A stretch of DNA of 43,746 nucleotides. Source: Nitrososphaerota archaeon (GTDB taxonomy: Archaea > Thermoproteota > Nitrososphaeria > Nitrososphaerales > Nitrosopumilaceae). Position 1 is the first letter of the stretch, and each line of letters starts with the position of its first letter. The position numbers and the translations under genes were made by a program. Below are positions 2,763 through 28,698 of the stretch, piece after piece. The DNA is taken from positions 1-43,746 of the forward strand of contig VHBM01000002.1 in NCBI GenBank assembly GCA_016871975.1, given 5' to 3'. A model generated the notes under the pieces. That model had not been told where the DNA came from, did not search any database, and was given only the letters and a program-made list of their open reading frames with translations.

Positions 2763-3608
2763 ATGGATTACGCACATCCAGAAGTACTTGTTGAAACAGA
2801 CTGGGTTGCAAAAAATCCACCAAACGAAAAAAGAATACTGGTAGAAGTTGACTATGATCCAGAAAACGGATACAGGAAAGGACACATCAAAGGGGCTAGC
2901 CTGATTTGGTGGAAGCGTGATGTAAATGATCCAGTTACTCGTGATATAGTAAACAAGGAACAGTTTGAGAAGCTAATGTCAAAAAATGGAATAACTCCAG
3001 ACTCTGAAGTAATTCTTTATGGAGACTTTAACAACTGGTTTGCGGCCTTTGTGTTTTGGGTTTTCAAGTATTATGGCCACAAAAACATCAAAATCATGAA
3101 CGGAGGGAGGAAAAAATGGGAGCTAGAAAAGCGAGAATATACAACTGAAGAACCCAAAGTACCTCAAACACAATATTTAGCTCAAAAACCTGATGAAAAA
3201 ATACGTGCATATCTTGATAATGTTAGAGGCTCACTTGGAAAACCAAGCATTGTTATGATTGATGTCCGTTCGCCAAAAGAGTTTACAGGTGAGATAACAG
3301 CTCCCCCTGAATATCCAATGGAACATGCACAAAGGGGAGGACACATACCTGGTGCAAAAAACATTCCATGGGCAACTGCAGTAAATGACGAAAATGGAAC
3401 ATTCAAGACAGTAGAAGACCTAAAGAAAATTTATTCAGAAAAGGGAGTAAGCCCTGACAAAAACATCATCTGCTACTGTAGAATTGGGGAAAGATCCTCT
3501 CACACTTGGTTTGTTCTAAAATATTTGCTTGGCTATCAAAATGTTGTAAACTATGACGGTTCATGGACCGAATGGGGCAACATGATTAAAAATCCAATCG
3601 AAAAATAA
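2763..3608 (+). CDS. Thiosulfate sulfurtransferase (two-domain rhodanese)
   Basis: RILVEVDYDPENGYRKGHIKGA...; VMIDVRSPKEFTGEI...HIPGAKNIPW; active-site loop CYCRIGERSSHTWFVL. Confidence 0.92.
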   Translation: MDYAHPEVLVETDWVAKNPPNEKRILVEVDYDPENGYRKGHIKGASLIWWKRDVNDPVTRDIVNKEQFEKLMSKNGITPDSEVILYGDFNNWFAAFVFWVFKYYGHKNIKIMNGGRKKWELEKREYTTEEPKVPQTQYLAQKPDEKIRAYLDNVRGSLGKPSIVMIDVRSPKEFTGEITAPPEYPMEHAQRGGHIPGAKNIPWATAVNDENGTFKTVEDLKKIYSEKGVSPDKNIICYCRIGERSSHTWFVLKYLLGYQNVVNYDGSWTEWGNMIKNPIEK

Positions 3609-3609
3609 G

Positions 3610-3921
3610 TTGAGCCAAGACTTACCAGTAATAAAAAAAGGAACATTTTACTTTATCAAAGATAGCAACACACACCTCATCGTAGAAGACAAGACAAAGC
3701 GAGGACTGACAGTAAAGGAGAGATCACTTGATGAAAAAACTAACGTTGAAGCTGACAAGGGCATGATACACGATCTTGACGGAATTGGTCATTGGGTTCC
3801 AATAAGATGGTTTTTCCCAAAATCAGACTATACACTAGAAAATGTTCTAGAACATGCAGAAGCAATGGAAAAAAAATACAAAGAACTACGTGAGCTGACC
3901 TGTCCTGAAGATGACGAATAG
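3610..3921 (+). CDS. Conserved hypothetical protein
   Basis: TTG start 1 nt after the rhodanese stop; 103 aa; same strand, probably co-transcribed. Confidence 0.6.
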   Translation: MSQDLPVIKKGTFYFIKDSNTHLIVEDKTKRGLTVKERSLDEKTNVEADKGMIHDLDGIGHWVPIRWFFPKSDYTLENVLEHAEAMEKKYKELRELTCPEDDE

Positions 3922-3959
3922 ATAAGATTTTTAAACAAACCTAGAGCAAATTAGACCAG

Positions 3960-4913
3960 ATGTCACTTTTACTGCAAGAGCGTGTCTATACAATGCAGTC
4001 CCCAACTGCAAAACGTGGGGTATATCCATTACACGGCTACAAGTTGGGACTATATCGCCTTCCAATAAAACTTGAAGACCCTCTAGAAATCCAGTCAGTC
4101 TTTGATGGCATGAAAAGCACATTCAAGATGGACAAATTTGCTGACCGAATTTATGCTACATATGCTTGGAAAGAAGAAAACGGCCCAGATCCTGACGCAA
4201 AAGGATACGAGCAAGTCGAGCTAAGCATAACTGTTGAGATAGTTACAGGCGAGGTAGTTGACATGATATACCAAATATTTCCAATCGAAAAGTTTGGTGA
4301 TCCACAATGGGTGCAAGACTATAGAAAAAAGGCAGATCACTATGCAAAGATGGTAATTGATACCATACTGCGAAACACAATCCTTGCAGACAAGATGGCT
4401 GAAAGCCTTATGAAAAGCGAGAAAATCTCGCAGGATCATGCATTTGTAAAACTAGAAGAGATGACGCCGCTTGCAAAGATAGTTCCAGATGCAAAACCAA
4501 AACCAAAGATCGAAGCTGTAGTTGAGCAAGCAGATGCAGGACCTGCAGTTGCTCCACTAGACGGTCCAAAGCCTGGACCAATTGATGTTGAATACAAATC
4601 TCACATGAGACCAAGCTCTCCATTCAAGGTTTCTGCAAACGGAAATACAATCAAGACATGGGGAAGAGGACCTGACAACAAAAGATTGGGGGTTTGGGGA
4701 GAGTATGTTTCAGTTGATTTTGATATTTGTGTTGCAGATGGTGCCTGTATTGACGCATGCCCTGTAAATGTGTACGAGTGGTTTGAAACTGCAGGACACC
4801 CAGCATCTGAGAAAAAGCCACTAATGGCAAGAGAGCCAGACTGCATATTTTGTCTGGCATGTGAAGGGGTCTGTCCTCCACAGGCAATCAAAATTTTCCA
4901 GAAAAAAGGATAG
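3960..4913 (+). CDS. Ferredoxin-containing protein with long N-terminal extension (two 4Fe-4S motifs)
   Basis: CVADGACIDACPVNVYEW and CIFCLACEGVCPPQAIKI; about 200-aa N-terminal region with no Fe-S motif; TATA-like tttttaaac about 30 nt upstream. Confidence 0.85.
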   Translation: MSLLLQERVYTMQSPTAKRGVYPLHGYKLGLYRLPIKLEDPLEIQSVFDGMKSTFKMDKFADRIYATYAWKEENGPDPDAKGYEQVELSITVEIVTGEVVDMIYQIFPIEKFGDPQWVQDYRKKADHYAKMVIDTILRNTILADKMAESLMKSEKISQDHAFVKLEEMTPLAKIVPDAKPKPKIEAVVEQADAGPAVAPLDGPKPGPIDVEYKSHMRPSSPFKVSANGNTIKTWGRGPDNKRLGVWGEYVSVDFDICVADGACIDACPVNVYEWFETAGHPASEKKPLMAREPDCIFCLACEGVCPPQAIKIFQKKG

Positions 4914-4964
4914 TTTTTTCTCGCAAGTATAAATACAGAATAATGATTTGCCAAACTAGGCAAG

Positions 4965-7007
4965 ATGGCAGTTAATCCGTTTACTTCATTTGTTTTTGAT
5001 CTTTTCATTCTTGCAGCTGTTTTGATAACAGGTTATACTTGCAATTTTTACTATCTGGCATTTCTTTCAAGAAAACGCAGAGAAAAATATGATCTAGTTT
5101 CACTTGGTGAGCCTACCATAACTGTTCAGCTTCCAATTTACAATGAAAAGTATGTGGCTGCGCGACTAGTAAATGCAGTATGTGCAATGGATTATCAAAA
5201 GGAAAAAATGAAAATTATGGTACTAGATGACTCTGATGACGATACTGTAGCAATTCTAGAGGACTTGGTAAACCATTACAAGAAAAATGGCTTTGATATC
5301 ATCCATGTGAGGCGAGAAACAAGAAAAGGGTACAAGGCTGGAGCACTAAAATATGCAATGAAATTCACAAATACAGAATTTGTTGCAATATTTGATGCAG
5401 ACTTTATCCCGCCAACTTGGTTTTTAAAAAAGGCAATACCATACTTTTCAAAATCAAACATTGGCCTTGTTCAGGCAAGATGGGGCCATGTAAATGAGAA
5501 CTATTCAGCAATAACACAGGCTCAAGCACTTAGTCTTGACTTTCACTTTCTAATAGAACAGCAGGCAAAAAGCAACTCAAATCTTTTTATGAACTTTAAT
5601 GGAACTGCTGGAATTTGGAGAAGAGAATGTATTGAAGATTCTGGTGGATGGCACACTGCGACCCTTGTTGAAGACTTGGATCTAAGCTACAGGGCACAGA
5701 TGAAGGGATGGAAGTGCATGTTTATTCCAGATATTGTTGTAAATGCAGAACTTCCTGTACAGATGAATGCTGCAAAAAGGCAGCAGTTTAGGTGGGCAAA
5801 AGGCTCAATGCAATGCGCCATCAAACTACTTGGCGACATTTTAATAAAAAGAAAAATTGCAGTAGAGGCAAAGATTCAGGCCTTTATCCAACTAACACGA
5901 CACATCGTATATCCATTAATGCTAATACAGTTTTTGGCACTGCCTGTTTTACTGGCAGGCGACATTAACCTGTATGTAGTTAGCATTCTTCCAGCACTGA
6001 CAATAGCTGCATACTTTGCCCTAGGGCCTGGCGCATATCTTCTTCTCATACATGACCTGTATGGAAAATCTTGGAAGTCAAAGGCAAAGGCATTGCCATA
6101 CTTGGTAATTTATTCAGCAGGACTGGCGGTAAACAACACTGTAGCTGTATTTGATGCAATGTTTGGAAAGAAAAACGAGTTTTTGCGCACACCAAAATAT
6201 GGGATCATAAAAAACACAGATGACTGGCACGATAAAGCATACAATCTACCATTTACAAAAACAACACTTCTTGAGATATTCTTTGGAATCTATGGCCTTA
6301 TGGGGATTCTAGTATCAATTTACTCAAACAATGCCTTTTTTGCACCAATAATTGGGCTTCAAACTATTGGATTTCTCTACATTGCCTCGCTTAGTCTTGC
6401 ACACTCTAGATTTAAAAGAAATAAATCAAGCAACCCTAAGGTCATATCAAAGGCAGAAAAAATGGCAAACAAAACATACAAGCTTGCAATGATTGGAATT
6501 TTTGGAATAATTATTTTTGGCGTCTATATGGCATTTGATGGATATCACAAAGACGTTTACCCACTTGATCTAACACGTGGTCTTTTGTTTAGAATAGCGG
6601 CATCATCAGAGCCAGATACAATGTTAGCTGATCTTCATTCAATAAAAGAAAATCTTGGCAAAGTGATGGCACGTCTTCCTGAAAACAAAAATCCTGTCTG
6701 GATATTTCCAACAGACTCGACAAACTTTGCAAGAATAACACAAGACATTGATGTAATGATTGCAAGCGTTGAAAAAATATCTACAGTTCCACGCGACAGC
6801 TCTGCATTTCATACAGGAATGCGTGATGTACATGAAAGGGCTGTTATTCTTAGAGAAAACGTAATGGATGCAACACCATACATGTATGTCAGCGTATCAA
6901 ATATCATATTTAGCTCAATCTGGATTGCTGCAATTTTGGGAATCTTTGCTGTACTAAAGAAAAGAAGAGAACAGCTTAGAGCCTATGATGCATCAGAAGA
7001 CGTCTGA
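4965..7007 (+). CDS. Glycosyltransferase family 2, cellulose-synthase-like, multi-TM
   Basis: TVQLPIYNEKYVAARLVNAV, VLDDSDDDT, FDADFIPP, EDLDLSYRAQMKGW, QQFRWAKGS (QxxRW), followed by TM helices. Confidence 0.92.
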   Translation: MAVNPFTSFVFDLFILAAVLITGYTCNFYYLAFLSRKRREKYDLVSLGEPTITVQLPIYNEKYVAARLVNAVCAMDYQKEKMKIMVLDDSDDDTVAILEDLVNHYKKNGFDIIHVRRETRKGYKAGALKYAMKFTNTEFVAIFDADFIPPTWFLKKAIPYFSKSNIGLVQARWGHVNENYSAITQAQALSLDFHFLIEQQAKSNSNLFMNFNGTAGIWRRECIEDSGGWHTATLVEDLDLSYRAQMKGWKCMFIPDIVVNAELPVQMNAAKRQQFRWAKGSMQCAIKLLGDILIKRKIAVEAKIQAFIQLTRHIVYPLMLIQFLALPVLLAGDINLYVVSILPALTIAAYFALGPGAYLLLIHDLYGKSWKSKAKALPYLVIYSAGLAVNNTVAVFDAMFGKKNEFLRTPKYGIIKNTDDWHDKAYNLPFTKTTLLEIFFGIYGLMGILVSIYSNNAFFAPIIGLQTIGFLYIASLSLAHSRFKRNKSSNPKVISKAEKMANKTYKLAMIGIFGIIIFGVYMAFDGYHKDVYPLDLTRGLLFRIAASSEPDTMLADLHSIKENLGKVMARLPENKNPVWIFPTDSTNFARITQDIDVMIASVEKISTVPRDSSAFHTGMRDVHERAVILRENVMDATPYMYVSVSNIIFSSIWIAAILGIFAVLKKRREQLRAYDASEDV

Positions 7008-11209: not shown

Positions 11210-11482
11210 CTAGTTTTGTCCTTCTATTCCCATAAGAGTAAGTGTTGATCTAACATGAGGAAGTTTTCTTATCTTCCATGTTATTGTCTCACGAAGCGTT
11301 TCATTTTTTTGTGAATGTACTTTTGCTATTATGTCATATGCGCCAAAAGTTCCATGAACTTCCTTTACATTTTCCAAGTGTTTAAGGTCGTCTATGATTT
11401 CTTCTTCGTGTCCCAAATCACAGTTTATCAAAACATATGCATCAGCCATTTTCAAACACTCATGTAGCAGGCCAAATTTCAC
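11210..11482 (-). CDS. Standalone Lrp/AsnC ligand-binding (RAM) domain protein
   Basis: AYVLINCDLGHEEEIIDDLKHLENVKEVHGTFGAYDIIAKVHSQ...; no HTH; likely start is the internal ATG at 11449. Confidence 0.85.
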   Translation of the reverse strand: MKFGLLHECLKMADAYVLINCDLGHEEEIIDDLKHLENVKEVHGTFGAYDIIAKVHSQKNETLRETITWKIRKLPHVRSTLTLMGIEGQN

Positions 11483-11689
11483 TTTCTAGCTCATGAATCG
11501 TTTTCTTTGAATCACTACCTAATTTTGATTTTTTTTGCTTTACCTTTTCCATACTATTTTTCTGTATTCATAATATATGAAGAACTATAAGTAAAAACTT
11601 AAAATTCATTTGAAATTATCAACAGAAATTGAATAAAAACATAGTAATTTTACTTTAACCTTAAATATTATTTTTGCAAATATCATGCT

Positions 11690-11807
11690 GACGAGGATTA
11701 CTCTAACGGATCATGTCCTCTTAGAGTGATGCAGCGAAGTTAGAGGAAGGCCTTTGGCTTTGGATGCAAACGCTTCCTAACCTTCCAGGCAAGCGTAAAT
11801 CCTCGTT
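11690..11807 (+). ncRNA. Candidate structured non-coding RNA
   Basis: Intergenic, higher GC than flanks; terminal helix 11691-ACGAGGATT-11699 with 11798-AATCCTCGT-11806, internal hairpin 11700-ACTCTAA / 11721-TTAGAGT, further pairing 11739-GTTAG / 11777-CTAAC; upstream BRE/TATA-like aaccttaaatatta (about 11657-11670) at the expected spacing. Confidence 0.5.
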
Positions 11808-11823
11808 CCTCGCTATCTTAGAC

Positions 11824-12270
11824 CTAAAATAATCTAAAGTCTTCTTTGATTGTGTTTAATACAACATGAGTTATGGTGTTTTCCACATTTGGTTTTGATG
11901 ATATTTTTTTTACAAATTCGCTGAGATCATCCCTTCCCTTGAATTTTGCAACAATGAATGTATCTGTTGTTCCTGTCACATCATATACTGCGCATATATT
12001 ATCAATGCCCGCAAGTTCGTTTTCTATCTCAATAATTTTGTCCTTTTTTGCAACAACTTCAATTACTGCAGTAAGATTGAATCCAAGTTTTTCGTGATCA
12101 AGTATTGCCGTATATCCTTTGATTATCTTTTCAACTTCCAGTTTTTTTAGTCTTGATATGATGGTTACAGTTGATATTCCAAGTTTTAGTGCAAGCTGTC
12201 TTGAGGATTGCCGCGCATCAACTAACAAATGTTTTAGAATTTTTTGATCTAGCTTGTCTGGTATCAACAA
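11824..12270 (-). CDS. Lrp/AsnC family transcriptional regulator (HTH plus RAM)
   Basis: LDQKILKHLLVDARQSSRQLALKLGISTVTIISRLKKLEVEKIIKGYTAIL and C-terminal RAM domain. Confidence 0.92.
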   Translation of the reverse strand: MLIPDKLDQKILKHLLVDARQSSRQLALKLGISTVTIISRLKKLEVEKIIKGYTAILDHEKLGFNLTAVIEVVAKKDKIIEIENELAGIDNICAVYDVTGTTDTFIVAKFKGRDDLSEFVKKISSKPNVENTITHVVLNTIKEDFRLF

Positions 12271-20139: not shown

Positions 20140-21852
20140 TTAGTACAAATTGTATAGTCTAGCTAGTGCAAGTTTGTCAGCTGGTTTTACAGTGGCAATC
20201 TTTCCATCAACTTTGACCTCATAGGTTTCTGGATCAATTTCGATTTTTGGTGTGAGATTGTTGTATATCATATCTTTTTTGCCAATGTTTCTACAGTTTT
20301 TGACTGGAACTAGTTTCTTTTTTGTTGAGACTTTTCTTTCCAGTCCTTTTTCGATTGCAATCTTTGATGTAAATGTAAATGATGTGAAATATTTTGCAGA
20401 ACCTAGTGCGCCAAACATGGGGCGATATGTGATTGGCTCTGTTGTAGGAATCGATGCATTAGGATCGCCCATAAGAGAATAGGCAATCATTCCTCCTTTG
20501 ATTATCATCTTTGGTTTTATTCCAAAAAATTGCGGAGTCCAGATAACAATGTCTGCAAGCTTGCCTGACTCTAGTGAGCCAACATATTGAGAAATGCCGT
20601 GTGTTATTGCAGGGTTTATCGTATACTTTGCAAGATATCGTTTTACCCTGAAATTATCATTTCTGTCAGTATCTTCTGGAAGTTTTCCAGTCATTTTTTT
20701 CATTTTATCAGCAGTCTGCCAAGTTCTTGTTGTAACTTCACCAATTCTTCCCATGGCTTGACTGTCAGATGACATCATGCTTAGAACACCAAGGTCGTGC
20801 AAAACATCTTCAGCTGCTATTGTCTCTGCCCTGATTCGAGATTCTGCAAATGAAACATCTTCAGGAACAGATGGATTTAGGTGATGGCAGACCATCATCA
20901 TGTCAAGATGCTCATTTAGTGTGTTTACGGTAAAGGGTCTTGTTGGGTTTGTAGACGATGGCAGGATGTTTTTTTTGCCAGCTATCTTCATGATATCTGG
21001 TGCATGTCCGCCGCCAGCTCCTTCTGTATGATACGTGTGAATTGTGCGTCCGGCAATGGCTGCTATGGTATCATCAACATAGCCACATTCGTTTAGTGTA
21101 TCCGTATGAATTGCAACTTGGGTGTCTGTTTTGTCTGCAACTTTGAGGGCTGCATCAATTGTAGCAGGAGTCGTTCCCCAGTCCTCATGAAGCTTTAGTC
21201 CACATGCACCTGCCTCTATTTGCTCAATTAGTGCATCTTCTTTAGAGTCGTTTCCTTTTCCCAAAAATCCAAAATTGAGTGGGTATTCTTCTACTGCTTC
21301 TATCATTCTTTGAATATTCCATGCACCAGGAGTACATGTTGTTGCATTTGTTCCATCAGCAGGTCCGGTACCACCACCAATCATTGTAGTTGTTCCATTA
21401 CAAATTGCATGGATTGCCTGTTGTGGAGAAATAAAATGGATGTGAGTGTCTACTGTGCCAGCTGTACAAATTGTATGCTCACCAGCTATTACTTCAGTAT
21501 TTGATGAAATTATCATGTCAATATCATCCATGATGTTTGGATTTCCAGCATTTCCAATTTTTACAATTTTTCCGTCTTTGATTCCAATGTCAGCTTTTAA
21601 AATTCCAAGTATAGGATCTAAGACAATTGTATTTGTAATTACAAGATCAAGTGAATCATTTCTTTTTACGCCGGAGGCTTGACCCATGCCATCTCTTGCA
21701 CTTTTTCCACCACCAAAGACGACCTCATCACCGTATCTTAGAAGATCCATTTCTATCTCGATTATCAGATCAGTATCTGCAAGCCTTATTCTGTCGCCTA
21801 TAGTTGGCCCAAAAAGGTCAACGTATCTCTTTCTGGGGATCTCAAGAACCAA
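20140..21852 (-). CDS. ureC: Urease subunit alpha
   Basis: [52 protein letters not shown] (carbamylated Lys), [32 protein letters not shown]. Confidence 0.98.
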
Positions 21853-27382: not shown

Positions 27383-28411
27383 TTACTGACCTGCGACTAC
27401 AGAGTAACTTACAGTAAATGGTTCAGTGTTTAGTGTGTGTACTGCGAGTGCATTACCAGCAAATTTCCATGTTCCAGCTGCGGATTCCTTGTCTACAAAT
27501 GTTAATGCAAACTTTGTCGTGCCATCTGGAGTCCATATTGCCTGGCCTGCGTCTTCACCTTCTGCTAGTGGACCATGTAGTGCTACTAGCTGAATTGGCT
27601 CAGATGCAGAATATGTCAAAAGACCGCTGTATGTTTTGTCACTTGGTGGCAAAATTATTGCAAGCTGATGTGTCTCATGACCAACTCCTGGATCTACCAT
27701 TGATGTGATTGTTCCAGTCTTTACTGTATCAGACATTTCTTTTTCCATATAGGAAACAGAATAGCTTACAGTAAATGGTTCAGTGTTTAGTGTGTGTACT
27801 GCGAGTGCATTACCTGTAAACATCCAGCTTCCCATAGCGGTTTCTGGATCAATAAAGGTAAGTGCAAACTTTGTCGTGCCATCTGGAGTCCATATTGCCT
27901 GGCCTGCGTCTTCACCTTCTGCTAATGGGCCATGTAGTGCTACTAGCTGAATTGGCTCGGATGCAGAATAGGAAAGTATTCCTTTGTATACATTGCTAGT
28001 TGGTGGCAAAATTATTGCAAGCTGATGTGTCTCATGACCAACTCCTGGATCTACCATTGATGTGATTGTTTCAGTGGTTGTTTTCCAGCCATGATCCATC
28101 TTTTTTTCCATTTTCTCTTCCATCTTTTCCTTCATCTTCTCTTCCATTTCTGGTGCAGCTTCTGGAGATTCCATTTCTTCTTCTACTGGAGCTTCTGGTT
28201 CCTCTTCAGGAGCTGTACCGCTCTTTACTTGTTGACGCATTTGTTCGCGTTCTGCTTCAGCATCAGGACCATTATTAGAGTCACAAATTTTATCTCCACA
28301 AATTCTTACTTGTGCAAATGCAGATGGAGCAGATTGTACTGCAAGTGATGTCGTTAGAAGTATTGTTATTGCAAACAATGTTACAAATTTTATGTGATTA
28401 ACTTTTGTCAT
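27383..28411 (-). CDS. Secreted protein with two near-identical ~100-aa domains and an acidic/Met-rich linker
   Basis: Signal peptide (...LTTSLAVQSAPSAFAQ), EEMESPEAAPEMEEKMKEKMEEKMEKKMDHGW linker, domain VDPGVGHETHQLAIILPP...GPLAEGEDAGQAIWTPDGTTKFALTF...ALAVHTLNTEPFTVSYSV present twice. Confidence 0.85.
   Translation of the reverse strand: MTKVNHIKFVTLFAITILLTTSLAVQSAPSAFAQVRICGDKICDSNNGPDAEAEREQMRQQVKSGTAPEEEPEAPVEEEMESPEAAPEMEEKMKEKMEEKMEKKMDHGWKTTTETITSMVDPGVGHETHQLAIILPPTSNVYKGILSYSASEPIQLVALHGPLAEGEDAGQAIWTPDGTTKFALTFIDPETAMGSWMFTGNALAVHTLNTEPFTVSYSVSYMEKEMSDTVKTGTITSMVDPGVGHETHQLAIILPPSDKTYSGLLTYSASEPIQLVALHGPLAEGEDAGQAIWTPDGTTKFALTFVDKESAAGTWKFAGNALAVHTLNTEPFTVSYSVVAGQ
27409..28073 (-). 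repeat. Tandem ~300-bp intragenic duplication (offset about 357 bp)
   Basis: e.g. acagtaaatggttcagtgtttagtgtgtgtactgcgagtgcattacc at 27411 and 27768; ~60-bp stretch aaaattattgcaagctgatgtgtctcatgaccaactcctggatctaccattgatgtgattgtt shared. Confidence 0.9.
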
Positions 28412-28596: not shown

Positions 28597-28698
28597 ATGG
28601 TTCATGCTTCCTTTAGAAAGGTAGTTGCCTTTGACCTATTATTTTTGGGTCTTGGCATAGCTATAGGAGCAGGAATCGGTGCATTCCTAGTAATCTAG
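28597..28698 (+). CDS. Small single-TM membrane protein, 33 aa (MVHASFRKVVAFDLLFLGLGIAIGAGIGAFLVI)
   Basis: Manual translation; ATG to TAG; glycine-zipper-like TM helix; absent from ORF track. Confidence 0.55.
   Translation: MVHASFRKVVAFDLLFLGLGIAIGAGIGAFLVI

Follow-up and report, generated by a model that had tools for sequence, protein, structure and literature searches.

A strongly folded candidate small RNA gene between two Lrp/AsnC genes of a Nitrosopumilaceae archaeon

Introduction

Intergenic small RNAs (sRNAs) of archaea include sRNA132 (PMC6560208) and s479 (PMC8155600) of Haloferax volcanii, for which a regulatory role is reported. For ammonia-oxidising archaea, an open-access search for sRNAs, non-coding RNA families and transcription starts gave only an RNA-family survey and a study of a group I intron.

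We analysed a window of 43,746 nucleotides (43.7 kb; the whole stretch of DNA under study) from a draft Nitrosopumilaceae genome of 1.09 Mb, which is in 101 contigs and 85.5% complete. Judged by its gene content, the organism looks like an ammonia oxidiser of the Nitrosopumilus group. The initial annotation of the window had proposed a structured RNA with a promoter-like element of its own in the DNA between two Lrp/AsnC genes.

Results

The element, at 11690-11807, is flanked by two Lrp/AsnC genes that are both on the - strand. The gene at 11824-12270 encodes an Lrp/AsnC regulator of 148 aa with a helix-turn-helix, and its 3' end points toward the candidate RNA. The gene at 11210-11482 encodes a stand-alone Lrp/AsnC ligand-binding domain protein, listed as 90 aa; since its relatives align from residues 10-12, the start is probably the ATG at 11449. 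These archaea carry many small ligand-binding-domain genes of this family, with up to 12 matches in one genome, and several of them stand in tandem at 2866-5705 of locus L149 in the related genome G014. The rise in GC that the initial annotation had described is real, the island at 11690-11807 having a GC content of 0.49 vs 0.22 in the adjacent AT-rich intergenic DNA. We also agree that no convincing ORF covers the element.

The 118 bases of the + strand are predicted to fold into a four-way junction with a minimum free energy of -50.9 kcal/mol. The fold has 46 pairs, of which 7 are G-U, and nearly all pair probabilities exceed 0.8. In the pair list, the terminal helix P1 joins 11690-11698 to 11799-11807. 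The helix that had been described here, ACGAGGATT (11691-11699) with AATCCTCGT (11798-11806), is present in both the sequence and the predicted fold, and base 11699 has alternative partners at 11798 or 11728. P2 (11699-11728; pair probabilities mostly 0.8-1.0) is made of (T)ACTCTAA / TTAGAGT(G) and an inner GGAT / GTCC, and so includes the hairpin of ACTCTAA (11700-11706) and TTAGAGT (11721-11727) seen earlier. The third helix of the initial annotation, GTTAG..GAAG with CTTCCTAAC, did not hold: when it was imposed the energy was -34.4 vs -50.9 kcal/mol (16.5 worse), and P3 and P4 form instead. P3 (11730-11768, arms 11730-11746 and 11751-11768; pair probabilities mostly 0.97-1.0) consists of TGCA/TGCA, a G/GA internal loop, a 12-bp helix with several G-U pairs and an AAGG loop. 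Its G-U pairs would be A-C on the - strand, and P3 is therefore confined to the + strand. P4 (11770-11796, arms 11770-11778 and 11787-11796; pair probabilities 0.93-1.0) consists of ACGCTT/AAGCGT followed by CCT/AGG with a bulged C, and has the loop AACCTTCC. The tip of P3, GGAAGG (11745-11750), is a perfect complement of CCTTCC (11781-11786) in the P4 loop, and this complementarity suggests a possible loop-loop contact.

We compared the fold with chance. Against dinucleotide shuffles, the z-score was -4.8 for 11680-11815 and -5.9 for 11690-11807 on the + strand, where none of 2000 shuffles was as good. With energy corrected for dinucleotide content, the element ranked first among 8726 windows on both strands of the 43.7 kb. 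In a scan of about 97% of the genome, its composition-corrected energy was second among 15,750 non-coding windows, behind an AT palindrome. Of the top windows besides the element, L211 is read as a long AT palindrome, L227 covers tRNA-Asn, and L168 is read as lying within a basic, Lys/Arg/Ala-rich reading frame. The fifth rank is held by an intergenic candidate at L197:5923-6040 (contig C40 of this genome), a long imperfect hairpin of AGGCAAGTAGG...CCTGCTTGCCT. A window antisense to a coding gene (28141-28260, + strand) had a shuffle z-score of -6.8, lower than that of the element, so that z alone is no proof of an RNA gene. An intergenic stretch at 28597-28698 (+) also folds well; it holds a short, membrane-like reading frame of 33 aa (MVHASFRKVVAFDLLFLGLGIAIGAGIGAFLVI) and probably encodes a small membrane protein.

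Either strand of a perfect inverted repeat can fold, so we kept P1 and shuffled the interior alone. The + strand interior gave a z-score of -3.6 and was better than 1996 of 2000 shuffles, the other 4 being as good. The - strand interior was at chance level, with a z-score of -0.8 and 215 of 1000 shuffles as good. Since the interior is exceptional on the + strand only, and P3 is partly built of G-U pairs, the element looks in these models like an RNA of the + strand rather than a DNA inverted repeat or a structure in a - strand untranslated region.

The initial annotation had pointed to a TATA/BRE-like aaccttaaatatta (11657-11670) at a fitting distance. We learned a promoter motif de novo from the upstream regions of 34 tRNAs of the same genome (consensus AAAAATTAAAAC; starts mostly 41 to 32 nt upstream of the tRNA), and the proposed site agrees with it in both motif and spacing. 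Its core AACCTTAAATAT (11657-11668, + strand) begins 33 nt upstream of 11690, where the 5' arm of P1 starts, and scores 6.66, the median for tRNAs being about 6.9; this score is reached by 2.6% of random intergenic positions. A match on the - strand, upstream of the element and inside the AsnC gene, scores nearly the same (6.1), so the promoter evidence lends support without settling the matter. The region gave no terminator-like site, and P1 is not directly followed by a U-tract.

We also evaluated known RNA classes. No Rfam 15 family matched over the element, at gathering or at permissive thresholds (E up to 5), in line with the initial annotation; this holds for the covariance models of SRP, RNase P, 5S, riboswitches and ribozymes. 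The RNase P model RF00373 (about 280 nt) gave no match in the element's own genome and clear matches in all five relatives tested; thus the element is not a diverged RNase P copy visible to this model. The RNase P RNA itself has probably fallen into a gap, the draft being 85.5% complete. A tRNA, with or without introns, was rejected, as neither ARAGORN nor Rfam gave a call and inspection of both orientations found no T-loop or A-box. Box C/D guide RNAs carry a C box (RUGAUGA) and a D box (CUGA) in that order; here neither strand has a C box, and the sole CTGA (11688) precedes the sole UGAUG (11727). Archaeal box H/ACA RNAs have a hairpin with a pseudouridylation pocket and a 3' ACA. P2-P4 hold no internal loop of pocket size, and the nearest ACA, at 11861, is 54 nt past P1. 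The arms do not match what we take to be the core consensus of integron attC sites. Elsewhere in the window, Rfam RF02514 (5' ureB sRNA) matched 21407-21699 (+) with 71.5 bits, antisense to a urease alpha-subunit-like gene (20140-21852, -); conservation of the urease coding sequence, rather than an sRNA, is the most likely source of this match.

When non-coding islands of the same genome that are bounded by 9-bp inverted repeats were ranked by GC contrast, the top three were a tRNA-Asp, the element and L163:17582-17688 (contig C6), which we read as a tRNA interrupted by an apparent intron and which is absent from the standard ARAGORN and Rfam gathering lists. This tRNA-like sequence shares with the element a similar length, a long terminal helix, a multi-branch fold, a GC island and the class of promoter motif. 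Unlike intron-bearing tRNA genes, the element has no ARAGORN or Rfam tRNA call, T-loop or A-box. In composition and fold, then, it behaves like a structural RNA gene.

Relatives were sought in 252 genomes of the family. Searches with blastn, two congeners included, gave short AT-rich or chance matches only. A covariance model matched only the element itself in the 252 genomes; a model built from a single sequence has little power to detect distant relatives, and others may be lost at the first-look filter of the genome search. Laxer filters on 37 genomes gave no homologue either. The model found no second copy in the 0.91 Mb of the same genome besides the window, so that the element is single-copy in this draft. 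The blastn matches listed for phages and plasmids were chance matches, none longer than 25 bases. Neither of the two congeners, which are 90% and 73% complete, yielded the element. Where the flanking genes align with one of them, G001, the DNA is 82-88% identical; with the element missing there, a conserved housekeeping RNA is unlikely.

The order of the locus is not conserved either, as judged through AsnC, the small Lrp, adenosylhomocysteinase and the flanking DNA. In G001, adenosylhomocysteinase and the 103-aa protein have different neighbours, a gene read as metG following adenosylhomocysteinase, and the AsnC neighbour was found in neither congener. Neither a homologue in the 252 genomes nor a syntenic locus was found that could show covariation. 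The initial annotation had named a lack of conservation in relatives beforehand as counting against its proposal, and we found none across these genomes, the two congeners among them. Its structured RNA is upheld in part: the strand-specific fold, the tRNA-like promoter, a GC island matched only by tRNA genes and the lack of an Rfam family support it, and the missing conservation counts against it.

Six intergenic elements of 91-104 bp that are bounded by GGAAGCTAAC...GTTAGCTTCC were observed in related genomes: three in G014 (L149:3452-3548, L149:10507-10609 and L153) and one each in G061 (L154), G062 (L155) and G064 (L156). Their arms are perfect inverted repeats of the form YGGAAGCTAAC...GTTAGCTTCCR, and a reversed control pattern gave no match. 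Like the window element, they are GC-richer modules between perfect inverted repeats, set in AT-rich DNA outside genes (GC 0.41-0.46 vs 0.20-0.31 in the flanks); the sequence of their arms is different. Their interiors are mostly unrelated to one another and, with the arms fixed, mostly lie at chance and are not strand-specific (z +1.2 to -1.7, with one exception at -2.9 and -2.8 on the two strands). This family might be a miniature element or a protein-binding inverted repeat. Lacking strand-specific interior structure, its members were rejected as relatives of the window element.

Discussion

The predicted fold, its strand specificity, the GC island and the promoter motif together point to 11690-11807 on the + strand as a candidate gene for a free-standing small non-coding RNA. 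This RNA would be about 120 nt or longer and specific to the species or a narrow lineage, and we consider this reading probable.

The alternative that survives best is a decaying or recently acquired sequence that owes its good fold largely to chance and is not maintained by selection. What is left of a mobile element, an RNA gene in decay or GC-richer DNA gained by horizontal transfer would all fit this description. An element conserved nowhere in the family, in a gene order that G001 does not keep and beside an AsnC gene that the two congeners seem to lack, is what one would expect of such DNA. However, the + strand interior helices outdo all but 4 of the 2000 interior shuffles, and a tRNA-like promoter at the matching spacing would have to be a coincidence. 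We regard this explanation as unlikely.

The element might instead belong to the - strand, as a structured intercistronic or 3'-untranslated region in a transcript of AsnC and the small Lrp, where it would serve to stabilise or process the mRNA. Both neighbours are on that strand, the element begins 17 nt after the AsnC gene, and its - strand folds too (-38.5; z about -3). However, all of this significance comes from P1, the interior falling to -0.8 once P1 is fixed, and P3 relies on G-U pairs present on the + strand only. This makes a - strand role a rather poor prospect.

A DNA-level element bounded by inverted repeats, such as a miniature transposon or a recombination site, is very improbable: the 9-bp perfect terminal repeats around a 116-bp GC-rich module and the six modules with other arms in G014, G061, G062 and G064 would suit it, but the element is single-copy (in a draft genome, which can collapse or lose repeats), its arms recur in the other family genomes in one match only (G221, with a coding-like interior), no direct repeats of more than 5 bases flank it as a target-site duplication, and its interior is strand-specific where those of the six are mostly unremarkable.

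If the element is an sRNA gene, transcription would start near 11690, and the junction would fold into a stable RNA, perhaps with the P3/P4 contact. Since P1 has no U-tract immediately after it, we would expect the primary transcript to continue, in antisense, into the 3' end of the Lrp/AsnC gene. The sRNA itself would be stable and trimmed to the folded core. It would tune the neighbouring Lrp-type regulators through antisense contact with the 3' region of the AsnC mRNA, a mechanism that we favour because of this predicted unterminated antisense transcript; further targets elsewhere may exist. The regulatory role, which we infer, is the weakest part of the explanation and is put forward with low confidence. 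It is also doubtful that the element represents a new class of structured archaeal RNA, a four-way junction with a possible P3/P4 kissing contact, which would control Lrp/AsnC-type regulators across ammonia-oxidising archaea and whose other members are too diverged for the searches used.

With no homologue in the 252 genomes, the element stays one orphan candidate. As a strongly folded, free-standing RNA beside two Lrp-type regulators, it is also a concrete and testable one. The Haloferax volcanii sRNAs sRNA132 and s479 are demonstrated haloarchaeal transcripts, whereas the window element is known from its sequence and offers no sequence relation to them that could be tested. Like these two sRNAs, the candidate would be encoded by a short gene of intergenic position.
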